64,000 nt of DNA. It comes from Sulfurimonas sp. CG01_land_8_20_14_3_00_36_23 (GTDB taxonomy: Bacteria > Campylobacterota > Campylobacteria > Campylobacterales > Sulfurimonadaceae). The notes beneath the pieces are model-generated. The model did not search any database, was not told where the DNA came from, and saw nothing but the letters and a program-made list of their open reading frames with translations. Positions 17,881-24,611 of this stretch are shown one piece after another. How positions within the stretch are numbered: position 1 is the stretch's first letter; each line of letters begins with the position of its first letter. Both the position numbers and the translations under genes were made by a program. The DNA lies in contig PETN01000037.1 of NCBI GenBank assembly GCA_002781365.1, forward strand, positions 20,319 to 84,318, given 5' to 3'.

Positions 17881-20391
17881 TTAATTTGTTAGTAGTTTAT
17901 AAATTTTGTCGACATTATTGCATATATCATTTTGTTTTTCCATTAAGAAAGAGTCTCGGACTTTATGTTTCGTACTATGGATTTTAGCCGTAACGATATT
18001 TATCTGCAACTCTTCAAAACAATCCATAATATAAGCTAAAAGACCTCTCTGGTTCGTTGTGTTAATTGTAAGTTCAGCATGTGTAAGTGAGTGCTCACAA
18101 TCTATGTTTAACTGGCTCTTTGTAATATCAATCTTTTTGATTTGAACATGCCGACTCATATCAAAAGCATTCTCTATTACACTCTCAATTGCTGATACTT
18201 CATCCTCGCTTATGGTGTCCACAAAATCTATTTTAAAGTATTTTAAGTCATCAAAAAGCGTAAAGATTTCCATAGAACCTACATCTAGATAACTAAGTGT
18301 TGCAAGGAGATAGCTAATATTTAATGGAATTCTTCTATAAATCTCTATAGTGAGTGAAGCGGATGCTTTGACGCTATAACTATAAGCTTTTGTCTCATTT
18401 GCTTTTAGGGCAATATTTAAAATATCTGCAGGAGTATGCCTAAAGAAAAAGAGATTGGATTCAACTCTTAAAACTTTTGTTTGCAAAAGTTTAGGCAGTT
18501 TTTGAAAATCTTCATTGTTTTGAACTCTTTTTTCTATAATAACTCTCTTCTTAGCATCTGTAATTCTGTCGCTGTTTTGAGAGATTTCTAAAGAGCTGAG
18601 ATATAAATCTTTTAAGAGTTTAGAGTTAAAAGAGTTGAAAATATGTTCACCAACACCATTCACATCCGCATACGTTAAAACATAGAGAAGTTTTAGGTTT
18701 TTAGAATCTACTATACTTGACATAAATTTATAGAGGGCTCTCTCATTATGAATATTTTGCTTGAATGCGACACTGCTCATAAGGACATGATTCCTTACCA
18801 AAGTTACAGCTCTTGCAACATGTTCCTCTTTGAATCCTAAGGTTTTTACAAAAGGGAGGATGAGTTTTGCACCTACTTCACTGTGGTCTTGAACACGCCC
18901 TTTACCTGTATCATGAAAAAGGACAACAACCTTCAAGAGTAGTTTCTCCTCATCGCTGAACTCATCATAAATCGCTTGAATAAAAGGCTCTTTTATGTTT
19001 TCTAAAGCTTCTACGCATTTGATAGAGTGCAGGTCTACAGGATAGGTGTGATAGCCATCAAACTGAGGAAGATGGAGCACTTTCCTAAAATTTAAAAAGA
19101 GGTGATGTAAAATCCCTGCATCATAAAAAAGTTTCAAAAAACAGTACATATGCTTTTTCTTGAAAAGCTCTTTTAAGAGAGAGTAGGTTTTTTTGCTTAG
19201 GGGATGGGTAATTGTTGTATAGGTAAATTGATTTAAAAAACCTGCATCAAAGTGATACTCTTTATCAGCAAGAGAGACTAAAATTTGTAAGAGATGGTTG
19301 ATGGACTCAATTTTGAGATTAAAGGATGCGAGAATGCGTGAATCATACTCATAAATCCCTCTACTGAGGCGATTTTTTCTAAATTTTCCAATATTATGCA
19401 TATCTACCAAGTAGGGTCGTACCATTTTTTTAACAAATATCTGAGTGAAATTACTGATACGCCATTGTGCTTCTAATACCTTACTAACAAGTCTTCTCTC
19501 ATTTGAAAATCCAAGCATTTTGTTTACACTTGGCATATGTTCAAGCAGAAGTCTGTCCTCTTGTTTGTTGCAAATAAGATGTAGTGCACTTCTCACACGA
19601 AAGAGAAGTTCTAAGGCGATACGATAATCTTTATACTCCTCATCTTCAAAGAGAGTGTTACTTAAATCTTTGAGCGCTGCCACTCCATAGATAGTCTGTG
19701 CCACCCATGTTATAAGTTGTGCATCACGAAGACCTCCAACACTCTCTTTAATGTTTGGCTGCATAGAGATAGGATATCTCTTTCTTCGGATTTGAGCTTC
19801 ATTGACTTTGGCTAAGACAAACTCTTTTGGATTATGAAGGCGGATTCTATTTAACTCCTTTTGTGTTGCGTGCCAAGTAAAGGCAGAACCCGTAATAAAT
19901 CTCGACTCCATCAAAGAGGTTCGTATGGTTATATCTTCACCCGCAGCTTTGAAAAGGTCGTTTGTATTGTGTACTCTATGTCCAAGTTTGAGTCCAGCAT
20001 CCAGTGCTAAATAGAAAAGTTTTTCTATGATGCGCTGCGTGTTAAACCCCTCTACCTCTTCATAAACGATTAACAAATCTATGTCGCTATGAACACACAA
20101 CTGCTCTCTTCCATAACTTCCAAGTGCAATAATGGCTATGGGAATAGAGCCACGCATTGGAAGGTAGTTTCCAAACATTCTTCGAAGAATTGTTTTATAC
20201 ATTAAAGAGAGAATGGAGTCAAGTTTTTTTGTATGCTTTACTAAAAAATCTTTTCCCTGACTCTGTTCAAAAAGTTCAGGAAGTGACTCTTTGTACTCTT
20301 TTATAAATTGTTTGAAAAGTTTAGAGAGTTCAAAGTCTGAACCATTGTTCTCAATAATATTTTCAATATGTAGCAGTAAGTCCATTTGCAA
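17881..20391 (-). CDS. glnD: PII uridylyltransferase / uridylyl-removing enzyme
   Basis: Senses glutamine and modifies the PII protein to control nitrogen assimilation. The nucleotidyltransferase domain has GSYGREQLCVHSDIDLL near residues 92-108. A helical region and an HD domain (VVLFHDTGKG, DHSEVGA) follow for the removing activity. Two C-terminal ACT-like regions (near 690 and 770-836) bind glutamine; the last (TINTTNQRGLLAYIMDCF) is clear. At 836 residues it is slightly short but complete. It is divergent from the LsrK-type operon across an 86-base gap. Confidence 0.93.
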   Translation of the reverse strand: MQMDLLLHIENIIENNGSDFELSKLFKQFIKEYKESLPELFEQSQGKDFLVKHTKKLDSILSLMYKTILRRMFGNYLPMRGSIPIAIIALGSYGREQLCVHSDIDLLIVYEEVEGFNTQRIIEKLFYLALDAGLKLGHRVHNTNDLFKAAGEDITIRTSLMESRFITGSAFTWHATQKELNRIRLHNPKEFVLAKVNEAQIRRKRYPISMQPNIKESVGGLRDAQLITWVAQTIYGVAALKDLSNTLFEDEEYKDYRIALELLFRVRSALHLICNKQEDRLLLEHMPSVNKMLGFSNERRLVSKVLEAQWRISNFTQIFVKKMVRPYLVDMHNIGKFRKNRLSRGIYEYDSRILASFNLKIESINHLLQILVSLADKEYHFDAGFLNQFTYTTITHPLSKKTYSLLKELFKKKHMYCFLKLFYDAGILHHLFLNFRKVLHLPQFDGYHTYPVDLHSIKCVEALENIKEPFIQAIYDEFSDEEKLLLKVVVLFHDTGKGRVQDHSEVGAKLILPFVKTLGFKEEHVARAVTLVRNHVLMSSVAFKQNIHNERALYKFMSSIVDSKNLKLLYVLTYADVNGVGEHIFNSFNSKLLKDLYLSSLEISQNSDRITDAKKRVIIEKRVQNNEDFQKLPKLLQTKVLRVESNLFFFRHTPADILNIALKANETKAYSYSVKASASLTIEIYRRIPLNISYLLATLSYLDVGSMEIFTLFDDLKYFKIDFVDTISEDEVSAIESVIENAFDMSRHVQIKKIDITKSQLNIDCEHSLTHAELTINTTNQRGLLAYIMDCFEELQINIVTAKIHSTKHKVRDSFLMEKQNDICNNVDKIYKLLTN

Positions 20392-20477: not shown

Positions 20478-20765
20478 ATGACAATCACAAAAAGAGTGAC
20501 ATTTATTGCCAAGCCAGATGGCATAGAAAAAATGAAAGAACTTTTGAGTGCTATGGTGGCTCCTAGTAAAGCTGAGGATGGCTGTATCTTTTATGAAATA
20601 TTTCAATATGAAAACAGACCTGAAAAATTTATGGCGTATGAGAGTTGGAGAGATGAAGCAGCTCTTGATGGACATAAAGCCTCAGCGCATTATAAAATTT
20701 ATAAAACAAGTTATGAACCTTTTTGTGCCGATAAATATAGTGATGAATTGGAAGTATTAGGATAA
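20478..20765 (+). CDS. Antibiotic-biosynthesis-monooxygenase-fold protein, LsrG-like
   Basis: A 95-residue ABM-domain protein: core EDGCIFYEIFQYENRPEKFMAYESWRDEAALDGHKAS with the typical conserved E, W and H. Relatives include YgiN (quinol monooxygenase) and LsrG, which isomerises phospho-autoinducer-2. On its own the sequence does not separate these. Being the first gene of a tight operon with an LsrK homologue (its TAA overlaps the next ATG by one base) makes an LsrG-type role the best inference. Confidence 0.75.
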   Translation: MTITKRVTFIAKPDGIEKMKELLSAMVAPSKAEDGCIFYEIFQYENRPEKFMAYESWRDEAALDGHKASAHYKIYKTSYEPFCADKYSDELEVLG

Positions 20766-21940
20766 TGGAAAATTTATGGAGTGATGAAAAATCATTAGAG
20801 TATAAAAGTGATTTAGCGTTAAGAGTCTATACTTCAAACTTATTGGGTCAAAATGATGCATTGGTGTTACATGGTGGTGGAAATACCTCAGTAAAGAGCA
20901 GAATTGATGGCGAAGATGTGCTTTATGTCAAGGGAAGCGGTTGGGATTTAGTCTCCATTAAAGAGGAGGGTTTTGCTCCCGTTAAACTTGCAACACTCCT
21001 AAAAATGGCAAAACTTGAACAACTCAGTGATACGGATATGGTAAGTGGACAAAAAGCTGCCATGCTAGACAAAGAGGCTCCAAACCCTTCTGTAGAAGCA
21101 ATTTTGCATGCACTTATTCCCTACAAATTTGTGGACCATACCCATGCGGATGCTGTGGTGACTATCTCAAACTCTGAGAATGGAGTTGAGCATATACAAA
21201 AAGTTTTTCCTAACTTTTTAATTGTGCCTTATGTGATGCCCGGATTTTTGCTTGCACAAACGATTGAGAGAATGACACAGGGCTTGGATTGGGAGAGCAT
21301 TGGTGGCATCATCTTGCATCATCATGGCATTTTTACTTTTGATGAGAGTGCAAAAAAATCTTATGAGAAGATGATAGCGGCAGTCACTTTAGCGGAGGAG
21401 TTTTTAGAAAAAGAGGCTCCTCTCGATGTAGGACATGCCTATATAGAGAGTAAGTGTGACATTAAAAGAATCGTAGCTTTTATGTCAAAAGAGAAAGGGT
21501 ATGATGTGGCACTGAGCATTAACCAATCTCCCCTCGCACTCTTTTACTCCTCACAGGAAAACTTAAAAGCTTTTGCTTCAAGAGGTGTTTTGACTCCAGA
21601 ACATATTATCCGTACAAAGAGAACTCCTTTGGTTGTGGAAGCAGAAAATCTTGAAGAGGCTACGCGTGAATATAAAGAGGAGTATATGAGATACTTCGAT
21701 ACATTCGCAACAGATGAGGTCTGCTTAAACCCCTCTCCAAACTATATGATTATAAAAAATTCTGGGGTTATCTGTTTTGGTAAAACTTCAAAAGAAGCAA
21801 GTATCATTAATGATATTGTTACGCATACGATGATGGCAGTTTTACGTGCGGATAAACTGGGTGGATATAAAAGCATAAGTTTACAAGAGAGTTTTGAGAT
21901 GGAGTACTGGGAACTAGAACAAGCGAAGTTGAAGAGATAG
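20765..21940 (+). CDS. Class II aldolase/adducin-family protein
   Basis: A 391-residue zinc-dependent aldolase-fold protein. The phosphate/glycine loop is LHGGGNTSVKSRI. Metal-binding histidines are in DHTHADAV and LHHHGIFTF, with the expected acidic residue near VEAILHALI. The N-terminal region resembles the aldolase domain of the RhaD-like long proteins, but no dehydrogenase domain follows. It sits between the LsrG-like and LsrK-like genes with a one-base overlap in front and a one-base gap behind. I infer it may cleave the phosphorylated AI-2 product in place of LsrF, which is absent here. A role with another sugar phosphate cannot be excluded. Confidence 0.78.
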   Translation: MENLWSDEKSLEYKSDLALRVYTSNLLGQNDALVLHGGGNTSVKSRIDGEDVLYVKGSGWDLVSIKEEGFAPVKLATLLKMAKLEQLSDTDMVSGQKAAMLDKEAPNPSVEAILHALIPYKFVDHTHADAVVTISNSENGVEHIQKVFPNFLIVPYVMPGFLLAQTIERMTQGLDWESIGGIILHHHGIFTFDESAKKSYEKMIAAVTLAEEFLEKEAPLDVGHAYIESKCDIKRIVAFMSKEKGYDVALSINQSPLALFYSSQENLKAFASRGVLTPEHIIRTKRTPLVVEAENLEEATREYKEEYMRYFDTFATDEVCLNPSPNYMIIKNSGVICFGKTSKEASIINDIVTHTMMAVLRADKLGGYKSISLQESFEMEYWELEQAKLKR

Positions 21941-21941
21941 T

Positions 21942-23504
21942 ATGTCTTATTTAATGGCGATAGATGCAGGAACAGGAAGTATAAGAGCGGTTATTTTTGA
22001 CACCAAAGGGAATCAAATTTCGGTTGCGCAAAAAGAGTGGACACATTTAGAAGAGGCAGGAGTTGTCAACTCTATGTGTTTTGATTGTGAGAAGAACTGG
22101 CTCTTGGTATGTGAATGTATTCAAGAAGCTTTGGCATGTGGAAATATTAGAGGCGATGAGATTCTCGCTCTGAGTGCGACAAGTATGCGTGAGGGAATCG
22201 TGCTCTATGATAAAGAGGGCAAAGAGCTCTGGGCAGTTGCAAATGTGGATGCAAGAGCTTCGGCTGAGGTAAAATTTCTCAAAGAAAACTTTAGCGGTAT
22301 CGAAGAGGAGTTTTATCAACTCTCAGGTCAAACTTTTGCACTTGGCGCACTTCCAAGAATTTTATGGCTCAAAAACAATAAACCAGAACTCTATGAAAAA
22401 GTGGCAAATATCTCTATGATAGGCGACTGGATTTTAGCCAAACTCAGTGGAGTGATAGCAACAGATCCAAGTAACGGCGGAACAACAGGAATCTTCTCTT
22501 TAGAGAATCGCGATTGGCATGTGGAAATGGCAAGCAGGATTGGTATTAAAGATAACATCTTTTCCACATGCCACGAAGTTGGAACGGTTATAGGAACGGT
22601 TACGAAAGAAGCAGAGTCTCAAACAGGGCTTTCAACAAAGACAAAAGTCGTAACAGGCGGCGGTGATGTTCAGCTCGGCTCTGCAGGTCTTGGTGTAGTC
22701 GAAGTAGGACAAGTTGCAGTTTTAGGCGGTTCGTTTTGGCAACAGGTGGTTAACATCCAAAGTCAAACACCACCTCCAAAAGATATGGGAATAAGAGTCA
22801 ATCCACATGTCGTTAGTGGACTCTCTCAGGCAGAGGGAATTACCTTTTTTAGCGGTTTGATTATGCGCTGGTTTAGAGATGCTTTTTGTGAGATGGAGAA
22901 ACTTGAAGCCCAAAAACGAGGTATTGATACTTACGCCGTTTTGGAAGAGAAAGCTTCAAAAGTGCCAGTGGGTTCATACGGGATTATTCCTATCTTTTCA
23001 GACTCTATGAAGTATGGCAAGTGGTACCATGCGGCTCCAAGCTTTTTAAATCTGAGCATTGACCCAGAGGTTTGCAACCGTGCTTCGATGTTTAGAAGTC
23101 TAGAGGAGAATGCGGCGATAGTCTCTGGCATAAATCTCGATAACATCAGAGCTTTCAGCGGTATAAAAATCGATGAACTTGTCTTTGCTGGAGGTGCAAG
23201 TCGTGGCACTTTATGGTCTCAGATTTTAGCAGATGTGACAGGGTGTAGAGTGAAAATTCCAAAAGTGACAGAGGCAACGGCACTTGGTGCAGCAATGGCT
23301 GCAGGTGTTGGGGCAGGGATATATACTTCATTAGCAGATGCCGCAAAAGAGTTAGTTGTATGGGAGAGAGAGTATCTGCCAAAGAGAGAAAATTTTGAGA
23401 AGTATCAAGAGATGAAGCAGAATTGGCAGAGGGCTTACTTGGCACAGCTTAAACTAGTAGATGAAAATGTAACTATTAGCATGTGGAAAGCACCCGGTTT
23501 ATAG
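21942..23504 (+). CDS. lsrK: Autoinducer-2 kinase (LsrK-type FGGY kinase)
   Basis: Phosphorylates AI-2 (DPD) in the Lsr pathway. The resemblance to E. coli LsrK runs from start to end: LMAIDAGTGSIRAVIFD at the N-terminus, SMREGIVLYDKEG, ANVDARA, DPSNGGTTG, GGGDVQLG, MRWFRDAFC, PIFSDSMKYGKWYHAAPSF and the closing SMWKAPGL. At 520 residues it matches LsrK (about 530) rather than a generic xylulose or glycerol kinase. No Lsr transporter, LsrR or LsrF is nearby, so uptake and regulation must differ from E. coli. Three perfect copies of the 12-mer repeat and one near-copy lie inside the gene. Confidence 0.87.
   Translation: MSYLMAIDAGTGSIRAVIFDTKGNQISVAQKEWTHLEEAGVVNSMCFDCEKNWLLVCECIQEALACGNIRGDEILALSATSMREGIVLYDKEGKELWAVANVDARASAEVKFLKENFSGIEEEFYQLSGQTFALGALPRILWLKNNKPELYEKVANISMIGDWILAKLSGVIATDPSNGGTTGIFSLENRDWHVEMASRIGIKDNIFSTCHEVGTVIGTVTKEAESQTGLSTKTKVVTGGGDVQLGSAGLGVVEVGQVAVLGGSFWQQVVNIQSQTPPPKDMGIRVNPHVVSGLSQAEGITFFSGLIMRWFRDAFCEMEKLEAQKRGIDTYAVLEEKASKVPVGSYGIIPIFSDSMKYGKWYHAAPSFLNLSIDPEVCNRASMFRSLEENAAIVSGINLDNIRAFSGIKIDELVFAGGASRGTLWSQILADVTGCRVKIPKVTEATALGAAMAAGVGAGIYTSLADAAKELVVWEREYLPKRENFEKYQEMKQNWQRAYLAQLKLVDENVTISMWKAPGL
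22133..22572 (+). repeat. Three GGCATGTGGAAA repeats within lsrK
   Basis: Perfect plus-strand copies at 22133-22144 (read L-A-C-G-N) and 22516-22527 (W-H-V-E-M), and a minus-strand copy at 22561-22572 (F-S-T-C-H). The last two face each other across 33 bases. A one-mismatch copy, AGCATGTGGAAA, at 23478-23489 is read S-M-W-K. Four different translations in one gene show that the DNA sequence, not a peptide, is repeated. Confidence 0.92.
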
Positions 23505-23549: not shown

Positions 23550-24611
23550 ATGAATTTAAAAACTAAGATTTTATCGGGTGAACGTGTAGATTTTGACGAG
23601 GCTCTGAGCCTTTACGATATGGATTTTTTTGAGCTTGGCGACTTGGCAGATGCAAAAAGAAAAGAGCGTCACGGTAAAAAAACATACTTCAACATCAACC
23701 GTCATATCAATCCGACAAATGTTTGTGCAGATGTATGTAAGTTCTGCGCCTACTCAGCTACAAGAAAAAATCCAAATCAGTACACGATGAGCCATGAAGA
23801 GATTATGGAAATCGTAAAAGATATAGACTCCCGTGGAGCAAAAGAGGTGCATATTGTTTCTGCACATAACCCAAATGTAACGCTGGAGTGGTACTTAGGG
23901 ATTTTTAAAAAAATCAAGCTAGCCTATCCTCATCTTCACATTAAAGCACTTACAGCCGCAGAGGTTGATTTCCTCTCGCGTCATCACTCCATCACTTATG
24001 ATGAAGTGCTTGACCTTATGGTTGAAAATGGGGTTGACTCTATGCCAGGAGGCGGTGCTGAAATCTTTGATGAAAAGGTGCGTGACTTTATATGTAAGGG
24101 GAAAGTGACATCAGAGCAGTGGATTGAGATTCATAAGAAGTGGCATGAACGCGGTAAAAAGTCAAATGTTACTATGCTTTTTGGGCATGTGGAAAGTAGG
24201 GCAAATCGTATCGACCACATGATGAGAATCCGAGCTTTACAAGATGAAACGGGTGGCTTTAACTGTTTTATTCCTCTTGTTTATCAAACTGAGAATAACT
24301 ATCTTAAAATCGAAGCACCTATTACCGCAAATGAGATTTTAAAAACGATGGCAATCAGCCGTATTGTTTTAGATAATGTTCCAAACTTGAAGGCTTACTG
24401 GGTCACTTCTACTGTAAATCTAGCCTTAGTCGCACAAGAGTTTGGCGCAAATGATTTAGATGGAACGATAGAAAAAGAGTCTATAAACTCAGCCGCAGGG
24501 GCAAAAAGTGCCAATGGTGTCAACTTAGAAGATTTTACAGCACTTATAAAAAATAGCGGTTTTGTTCCAGTGGAGCGAGATAGTATTTACAACGAAATCA
24601 AAGTCTGGTAA
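23550..24611 (+). CDS. mqnE: Aminofutalosine synthase (menaquinone, futalosine pathway)
   Basis: Radical-SAM enzyme that joins SAM to 3-[(1-carboxyvinyl)oxy]benzoate to form aminofutalosine. The Cx3Cx2C cluster motif CADVCKFC lies at about residues 58-65 after NRHINPTNV. GGGAEIF and the KALTAAEVDFLSR stretch fit MqnE better than its paralogue MqnC. At 353 residues it is the usual size. Campylobacterota use this pathway for their only quinone, so the gene is expected to be essential. Confidence 0.9.
   Translation: MNLKTKILSGERVDFDEALSLYDMDFFELGDLADAKRKERHGKKTYFNINRHINPTNVCADVCKFCAYSATRKNPNQYTMSHEEIMEIVKDIDSRGAKEVHIVSAHNPNVTLEWYLGIFKKIKLAYPHLHIKALTAAEVDFLSRHHSITYDEVLDLMVENGVDSMPGGGAEIFDEKVRDFICKGKVTSEQWIEIHKKWHERGKKSNVTMLFGHVESRANRIDHMMRIRALQDETGGFNCFIPLVYQTENNYLKIEAPITANEILKTMAISRIVLDNVPNLKAYWVTSTVNLALVAQEFGANDLDGTIEKESINSAAGAKSANGVNLEDFTALIKNSGFVPVERDSIYNEIKVW
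24184..24195 (+). repeat. GGCATGTGGAAA repeat within mqnE
   Basis: Perfect copy read G-H-V-E-S; preceded by G rather than T. Confidence 0.85.

Follow-up and report, generated by a model that had tools for sequence, protein, structure and literature searches.

What would a bacterium with its own luxS, a kinase of the LsrK type and no detectable LsrF do with autoinducer-2 (AI-2)? This question is raised by a 64,000-nucleotide stretch (the window) of contig PETN01000037.1 from Sulfurimonas sp. CG01_land_8_20_14_3_00_36_23, the genome of which is labelled G000. At positions 20478-23504 of the window, three plus-strand open reading frames (ORFs) follow one another with nearly no spacing, encoding an ABM-domain protein, a class II aldolase and an FGGY kinase, in that order; the first two overlap by one base (TAATG), and a single base separates the aldolase from the kinase. 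A sequence-only reading of the window had proposed a minimal AI-2-processing operon here, its genes spaced by one base or less, and the coordinates, order and spacing are as it described (Table 1). Judged from the sequence evidence detailed below, the operon probably constitutes an AI-2 catabolic route in which the class II aldolase takes the place of LsrF, whichever cleavage chemistry that aldolase employs.

The identity of the kinase is central to this proposal. Against the NCBIfam AI-2 kinase model NF008187 it scores 874.8 bits (cut-off 528), while its next best model, xylulokinase, gives 189 bits, under the cut-off of that model. The best solved structure for the protein is E. coli LsrK (5ya0, E 2e-195), and its identity with an E. 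coli LsrK reaches 56%. Residues proposed to form the pocket for the AI-2 precursor 4,5-dihydroxy-2,3-pentanedione (DPD) in E. coli LsrK, i.e., T21, S91, M92, R93, D253, V254, F276, Q278, E308 and I310 (PMC8016206), are identical in the window kinase at all 10 of the 10 positions compared. The strong LsrK homologue named by the earlier reading is thus an LsrK, with membership as good as sequence allows, and phosphorylation of DPD is predicted for it.

Much of the canonical Lsr system was not found alongside this kinase. Searches of the window's genome recovered neither LsrB nor an LsrR-type sugar-binding regulator, and LsrF had no match there, with the 119 related genomes sampled giving only matches of about 30 bits. 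The LsrF and LsrB queries are functional, since the same queries detect their targets in other lsr loci. The absence of LsrF, LsrR and the importer claimed in the sequence-only reading therefore holds genome-wide for LsrF, LsrB and the LsrR-type regulator. That reading had also tied an AI-2 function to luxS, which is present in the genome as an open frame with no stops (E 2.6e-57); because luxS is almost universal among the relatives, it does not discriminate between them.

LsrK and the aldolase travel together. Of the 119 relatives, 66 carry LsrK and 67 carry the aldolase; by raw count in the near-complete subset (77 genomes, ≥95% complete), 41 have both, 36 have neither and none is discordant. 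Presence and absence both occur inside at least four families (f1, f4, f7 and f10), with the two genes concordant in the near-complete genomes. Across the phylum, LsrK was detected in 62 of 397 well-finished genomes, representing 20 of 68 genera. The 80 closest named loci all belong to Campylobacterota, many to Sulfurimonas, and the order ABM-aldolase-LsrK, for which a search of relatives had been suggested, is seen again in Sulfurimonas, Sulfurovum, Sulfurospirillum and Arcobacter; in 64 loci enough upstream sequence was available, and in 42 of these the aldolase immediately precedes LsrK. Given such conservation across genera, the operon is not confined to this one organism. MetK lies near LsrK in 19 of the 80 named loci, and across the 80 no transporter or regulator gene recurs beside the operon. 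The idea that the ABM-aldolase-LsrK gaps of relatives conceal a transporter or regulator was likewise set aside, the inserted genes being nonrecurrent. Separately, one relative (G091) carries two LsrK genes (contigs C36 and C50) of unequal divergence (855 and 756 bits); the second copy may be foreign, as this genome is 8% contaminated.

The aldolase itself gives a full-length match (443 bits) to the aldolase half of the PRK08324 bifunctional aldolase/short-chain dehydrogenase (SDR) models, and ends at the domain boundary, so that the C-terminal SDR of PRK08324 is not present. It is homologous to the aldolase half of RhaEW (TIGR02632, 213 bits over 371 residues), to which it is about 29% identical. 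The expected metal-binding and catalytic residues E111, H125, H127 and H187 are invariant across 27 sequences. An AlphaFold model of the protein (pLDDT 92) has its best structural match in a Thermoplasma class II aldolase domain (3m4r), then in fuculose-1-phosphate aldolases (FucA), with the 5-deoxyribulose-phosphate aldolase DrdA as a lower-ranked match.

An independent view of this enzyme comes from alphaproteobacterial lsr loci, reached via an LsrK search of annotated plasmids. On pSymB of Sinorhizobium meliloti, LsrR-LsrK-ABM are encoded one way and LsrC-LsrD-LsrB-class II aldolase the opposite way; LsrF was not found in this locus, and an SDR-less aldolase of the window family occupies its position. 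An earlier survey gave the locus as lsrBDCARKG, with the aldolase unmentioned (PMC2561040). The same arrangement without LsrF is found in Ensifer canadensis, Rhizobium sp. WL3, Paracoccus aminophilus and Alloyangia pacifica, and by tblastn in Shinella and Tritonibacter, for a total of seven alphaproteobacterial lsr loci in which LsrR-LsrK-LsrG accompany an LsrB-containing transport operon with the SDR-less aldolase last. The alphaproteobacterial lsr loci with a terminal SDR-less aldolase are L158 (S. meliloti pSymB), L159, L160, L161, L163, L164 and L167, LsrF not being in the stretch examined. Conversely, in the LsrF-bearing lsr loci of Enterobacter and Lacticaseibacillus, no class II aldolase of this family was found. 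LsrK identity, concordance of kinase and aldolase across genomes, and the LsrF position held by the aldolase in alphaproteobacteria together argue strongly for the suggestion of the earlier reading that the aldolase may substitute for LsrF.

The S. meliloti-type lsr aldolases are 38-42% identical to that of the window, and rhizobia additionally carry an SDR-fused aldolase in MtnK/MtnA clusters. In a tree with rhamnulose-phosphate aldolases as the outgroup, alphaproteobacterial lsr aldolases fall nearest alphaproteobacterial Mtn aldolases (support 87/88), and campylobacterotal LsrK-linked aldolases group with campylobacterotal fusions (support 85/85); a single shared origin of the two LsrK-linked groups was rejected (approximately unbiased test, p 1.3e-6). 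As these groups do not form one clade, two separate recruitments of the aldolase are likely, though not proven given the moderate backbone support and long branches.

The fusions themselves clarify what the SDR accompanies. In some relatives, an aldolase-SDR fusion of about 653 residues replaces the 391-residue aldolase, often adjoining MtnK, MtnA and MetK, as in the gene row ABM-LsrK-MetK-MtnK-MtnA-aldolase/SDR-MqnE of genome G062. MtnK and MtnA are those of the dihydroxyacetone phosphate (DHAP) shunt, in which they feed a class II aldolase that releases DHAP from 5-deoxyribulose- or methylthioribulose-1-phosphate (PMC6079011, PMC10986504). MtnA accompanies 16/17 intact fusions, 3/9 fusions with a shrunken SDR and 3/39 SDR-less aldolases, whereas the corresponding values for LsrK are 15/17, 8/9 and 38/39. 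Among the near-complete genomes, 15 have both MtnA and the aldolase, 2 have MtnA only, 26 have the aldolase only and 34 have neither. The SDR goes with the methylthioribose branch (MtnA) and the aldolase domain goes with LsrK; we take this to mean that the AI-2 branch uses the aldolase without an SDR, and that certain species employ it together with an SDR in an MtnK/MtnA branch as well. Shrunken SDRs have at least three separate origins, counted as well-supported branches.

Several observations on these fusions stand on their own. Shrunken-SDR fusions (Table 1) mostly come from genomes in which MtnA is missing or divergent, i.e., domain decay tracks loss of a pathway branch. In genome G026, a 22-codon MtnA remnant persists in locus L036, and the MtnK/MtnA branch was probably lost there recently. 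Sulfurimonas operons at loci L032 (G062), L035 (G068) and L078 unite ABM, LsrK, MetK, MtnK, MtnA and aldolase/SDR, and are likely combined salvage modules for AI-2, methylthioribose and 5-deoxyribose, by-products of S-adenosylmethionine (SAM), with one or two aldolases.

For the ABM protein, position and company point to a candidate isomerase in the LsrG role, distantly LsrG-like. In the near-complete genomes, LsrK and ABM occur together in 34, LsrK alone in 7 and neither in 36, and an ABM protein of the window type was never seen without LsrK. Its H66 and H71 are common to LsrG; as other ABM proteins carry both histidines too, these are not diagnostic, and active-site residues were discarded as proof of LsrG function. 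Another candidate for this step in some relatives is a cupin of about 125 residues encoded directly after LsrK in Sulfurospirillum- and Arcobacter-like loci, as well as on a Deinococcus psychrotolerans plasmid, with 47% identity between phyla. Across the 66 LsrK genomes, the cupin is found in 6 of 12 without ABM and 1 of 54 with it (P 7e-5, uncorrected for relatedness), while some named Sulfurospirillum loci hold both; it was not found in the window's genome. In those relatives, the cupin may be a substitute phospho-AI-2 isomerase or a β-diketone-processing enzyme.

In the E. coli pathway, phospho-DPD is isomerised by LsrG, after which LsrF transfers the acetyl group to coenzyme A (CoA) and DHAP is left (PMC8016206). 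The window operon would run an importer-less version of this salvage: LsrK would phosphorylate DPD/AI-2 at C5, the ABM protein would isomerise phospho-DPD to 3-hydroxy-2,4-pentanedione-5-phosphate as LsrG does, and the class II aldolase would do the work of LsrF by splitting the C2-C3 bond, yielding DHAP and a C2 product. The product of LsrG is CH3-CO-CHOH-CO-CH2-OPO3, and its cleavage between C2 and C3 leaves the DHAP enediolate. That intermediate is stabilised at the metal of FucA/RhaD-type enzymes, which makes a class II aldolase a plausible replacement for LsrF. Two options for cleavage would then exist, namely water attacking the acetyl carbon, affording acetate and DHAP, or prior reduction at C2, affording acetaldehyde and DHAP. 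From known chemistry, we favour with modest confidence the direct retro-Claisen option (DHAP together with acetate or an acetyl unit), as the tie to LsrK persists without the SDR and no linked dehydrogenase is kept. More tentatively still, Campylobacterota and alphaproteobacteria may have enlisted a class II aldolase separately, in two or more events, for direct retro-Claisen cleavage of isomerised phospho-AI-2, with the kinase constant and both the isomerase (ABM or cupin) and the cleaver (LsrF or class II aldolase) interchangeable. To our knowledge, a retro-Claisen reaction on a β-diketone would be new for the class II aldolase fold.

As to purpose, the main source of AI-2 would be the cell's own LuxS, such that ribose carbon of the SAM cycle is returned to central metabolism and AI-2 is kept low; the operon would thus serve carbon recovery and control of AI-2 level, and not a quorum circuit of the Lsr type. 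With luxS present and LsrB and LsrR not found, recovery of carbon from self-made DPD is the simplest purpose, and salvage of SAM-cycle products or SAM by-products fits the MetK neighbourhood and, in some species, MtnK and MtnA. The sequence-only reading suggested that the AI-2 may enter by another path. Uptake of foreign AI-2 via another transporter is possible but unsupported, and cytosolic DPD is a simpler source for a cell with luxS.

Placed against known systems, the operon shares with the lsr system of E. coli and Salmonella (LsrACDBFG, LsrR and LsrK) an LsrK orthologue, an ABM-fold protein and a dedicated C-C-cleaving enzyme expected to give DHAP. It differs in that no importer or LsrR was found, the ABM protein is distantly LsrG-like, and LsrF, a CoA-dependent thiolase of class I aldolase fold, is exchanged for a class II aldolase. 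With the lsr loci of S. meliloti and other alphaproteobacteria it has in common LsrK, ABM/LsrG, a class II aldolase that lacks the SDR and belongs to one family in both, and the lack of a detected LsrF; S. meliloti, however, has the LsrACDB importer and LsrR, no luxS (PMC2561040), and an aldolase of a separate clade. The DHAP shunts (MtnK-MtnA-Ald2; DrdK-DrdI-DrdA) also use a class II aldolase expected to free DHAP from a C5 phosphate, but the window kinase is LsrK and not MtnK, and its genome is without MtnA. The RhaEW rhamnulose-1-phosphate aldolase/lactaldehyde dehydrogenase (PMC3870299) has a homologous aldolase half, whereas the window aldolase is without the SDR half and has no rhamnose genes nearby. 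The evidence supports a variant of the Lsr AI-2 pathway that is widespread in Campylobacterota and has an independent parallel in alphaproteobacteria.

Certain points weigh against this route. The ABM protein scores 32.5 bits against the LsrG model NF007791 (cut-off 135) and is at least as close to other ABM proteins as to LsrG; being below the cut-off, it is not filed as LsrG but only as working like LsrG. The "LsrG-like" label of the sequence-only reading accordingly stands for fold, position and company, and falls on the family test. Three near-complete LsrK-bearing genomes (G024, G026 and G040) gave no ABM and no cupin match at the search thresholds applied, and the co-occurrence counts take no account of phylogeny. 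We know of no case of β-diketone cleavage by a class II aldolase. LsrF, moreover, requires CoA as the acetyl acceptor (PMC8016206). Lastly, an SDR encoded elsewhere in the window's genome, 28% identical to the fused SDR domain, could be an unlinked reductase. Were a reductase to generate 5-deoxypentulose-1-phosphate for retro-aldol cleavage to DHAP and acetaldehyde, the aldolase would receive its usual type of substrate, and DrdA does prefer acetaldehyde (PMC6079011); fused aldolase/SDR proteins also lie beside LsrK in many relatives. We nonetheless consider this form of the AI-2 route rather unlikely, because the SDR tracks MtnA, decaying or vanishing upon MtnA loss while LsrK and the aldolase persist, and because the alphaproteobacterial lsr aldolases are SDR-less as well.

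Explanations outside AI-2 catabolism fare worse. If the aldolase belonged to a DHAP shunt for 5-deoxyribose or methylthioribose via MtnK and MtnA, it would adjoin LsrK merely as a neighbour in SAM metabolism; fused homologues do cluster with MtnK and MtnA, both in relatives and in rhizobia, and DrdA, of known function (PMC6079011), is among the structural matches. This is very improbable, as MtnA was not found in the window's genome (MtnK was not searched for genome-wide), MtnA is rare in genomes with an SDR-less aldolase, and in near-complete genomes the aldolase tracks LsrK perfectly and MtnA loosely. Salvage of 5-deoxyribose or methylthioribose by the window aldolase was hence rejected. FGGY kinases are often promiscuous, which, together with the lack of a detected LsrB importer or regulator in the genome, would suit a kinase acting on another ketose (such as a deoxypentulose or xylulose) in sugar catabolism unrelated to AI-2. 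The gulf between the LsrK and xylulokinase scores, the fully conserved DPD pocket and the presence of the same enzyme types with an AI-2 importer in alphaproteobacteria make this a slim prospect. Equally hard to credit is a quorum circuit in which phospho-AI-2, the inducer made by LsrK in E. coli (PMC8016206), serves as a signal read by a non-LsrR regulator and cleared by the ABM protein and the aldolase: luxS is present, but an LsrR-type regulator was not found in the genome, and no regulator recurs beside the operon in the 80 loci.

The flanking genes are treated as neighbours. mqnE is not counted among the genes of the proposed pathway; a functional link of the trio to this radical SAM gene was considered and dropped, as mqnE adjoins in 33 of the 80 loci and other genera have the trio without it. 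The glnD-like gene recurs in 28 of the 80, and the 86 bases separating it from the ABM gene are likely the promoter region, although a pattern scan for a sigma-70 promoter ahead of the ABM gene gave nothing convincing.

Table 1. Features of the window and of the loci compared with it (positions prefixed with L or G refer to other loci or genomes).
Feature	Position	Strand	Basis or remark
ABM-domain protein, 95 residues, candidate phospho-AI-2 isomerase in the LsrG role	20478..20765	+	PF03992, E 8e-15
Class II aldolase, 391 residues, SDR-less, proposed LsrF replacement	20765..21940	+	PF00596 Aldolase_II, E 1.6e-20
AI-2 kinase LsrK, 520 residues	21942..23504	+	FGGY_N/FGGY_C, E 1e-43/2e-21; NF008187; E. 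coli LsrK 5ya0
mqnE, aminofutalosine synthase	23550..24611	+	PRK08444/TIGR03700; 45 bases downstream of kinase
glnD-like PII uridylyltransferase	17881..20391	-	PF08335; divergent upstream neighbour
Cupin after LsrK	L105 11638-12027; L162 10563-10961		Same place in L108, L122, L133, L136, L139, L155
SDR-less class II aldolase, S. meliloti pSymB	L158 17569-18819		LsrF position of lsr locus
Shrunken-SDR fusions	L037 4703-6418; L041 6946-8553; L054 6350-8059; L055 487-2091; L063 6688-8181		
MtnA remnant	G026:C112:30678-30743		L036; between LsrK and intact aldolase/SDR

Few bacterial signals are made as widely as AI-2, and the role of luxS has often been argued to be metabolic rather than communicative. 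If the proposed route is correct, it would constitute a second, overlooked pathway of AI-2 breakdown, which may be widespread given the independent occurrence of the aldolase exchange in plant-associated bacteria. It would also assign a function to an enzyme of the lsr locus in S. meliloti, a model symbiont. Importer-less conversion of AI-2 carbon to DHAP in luxS-bearing Campylobacterota would, moreover, provide direct genetic support for the metabolic view in a large bacterial group.

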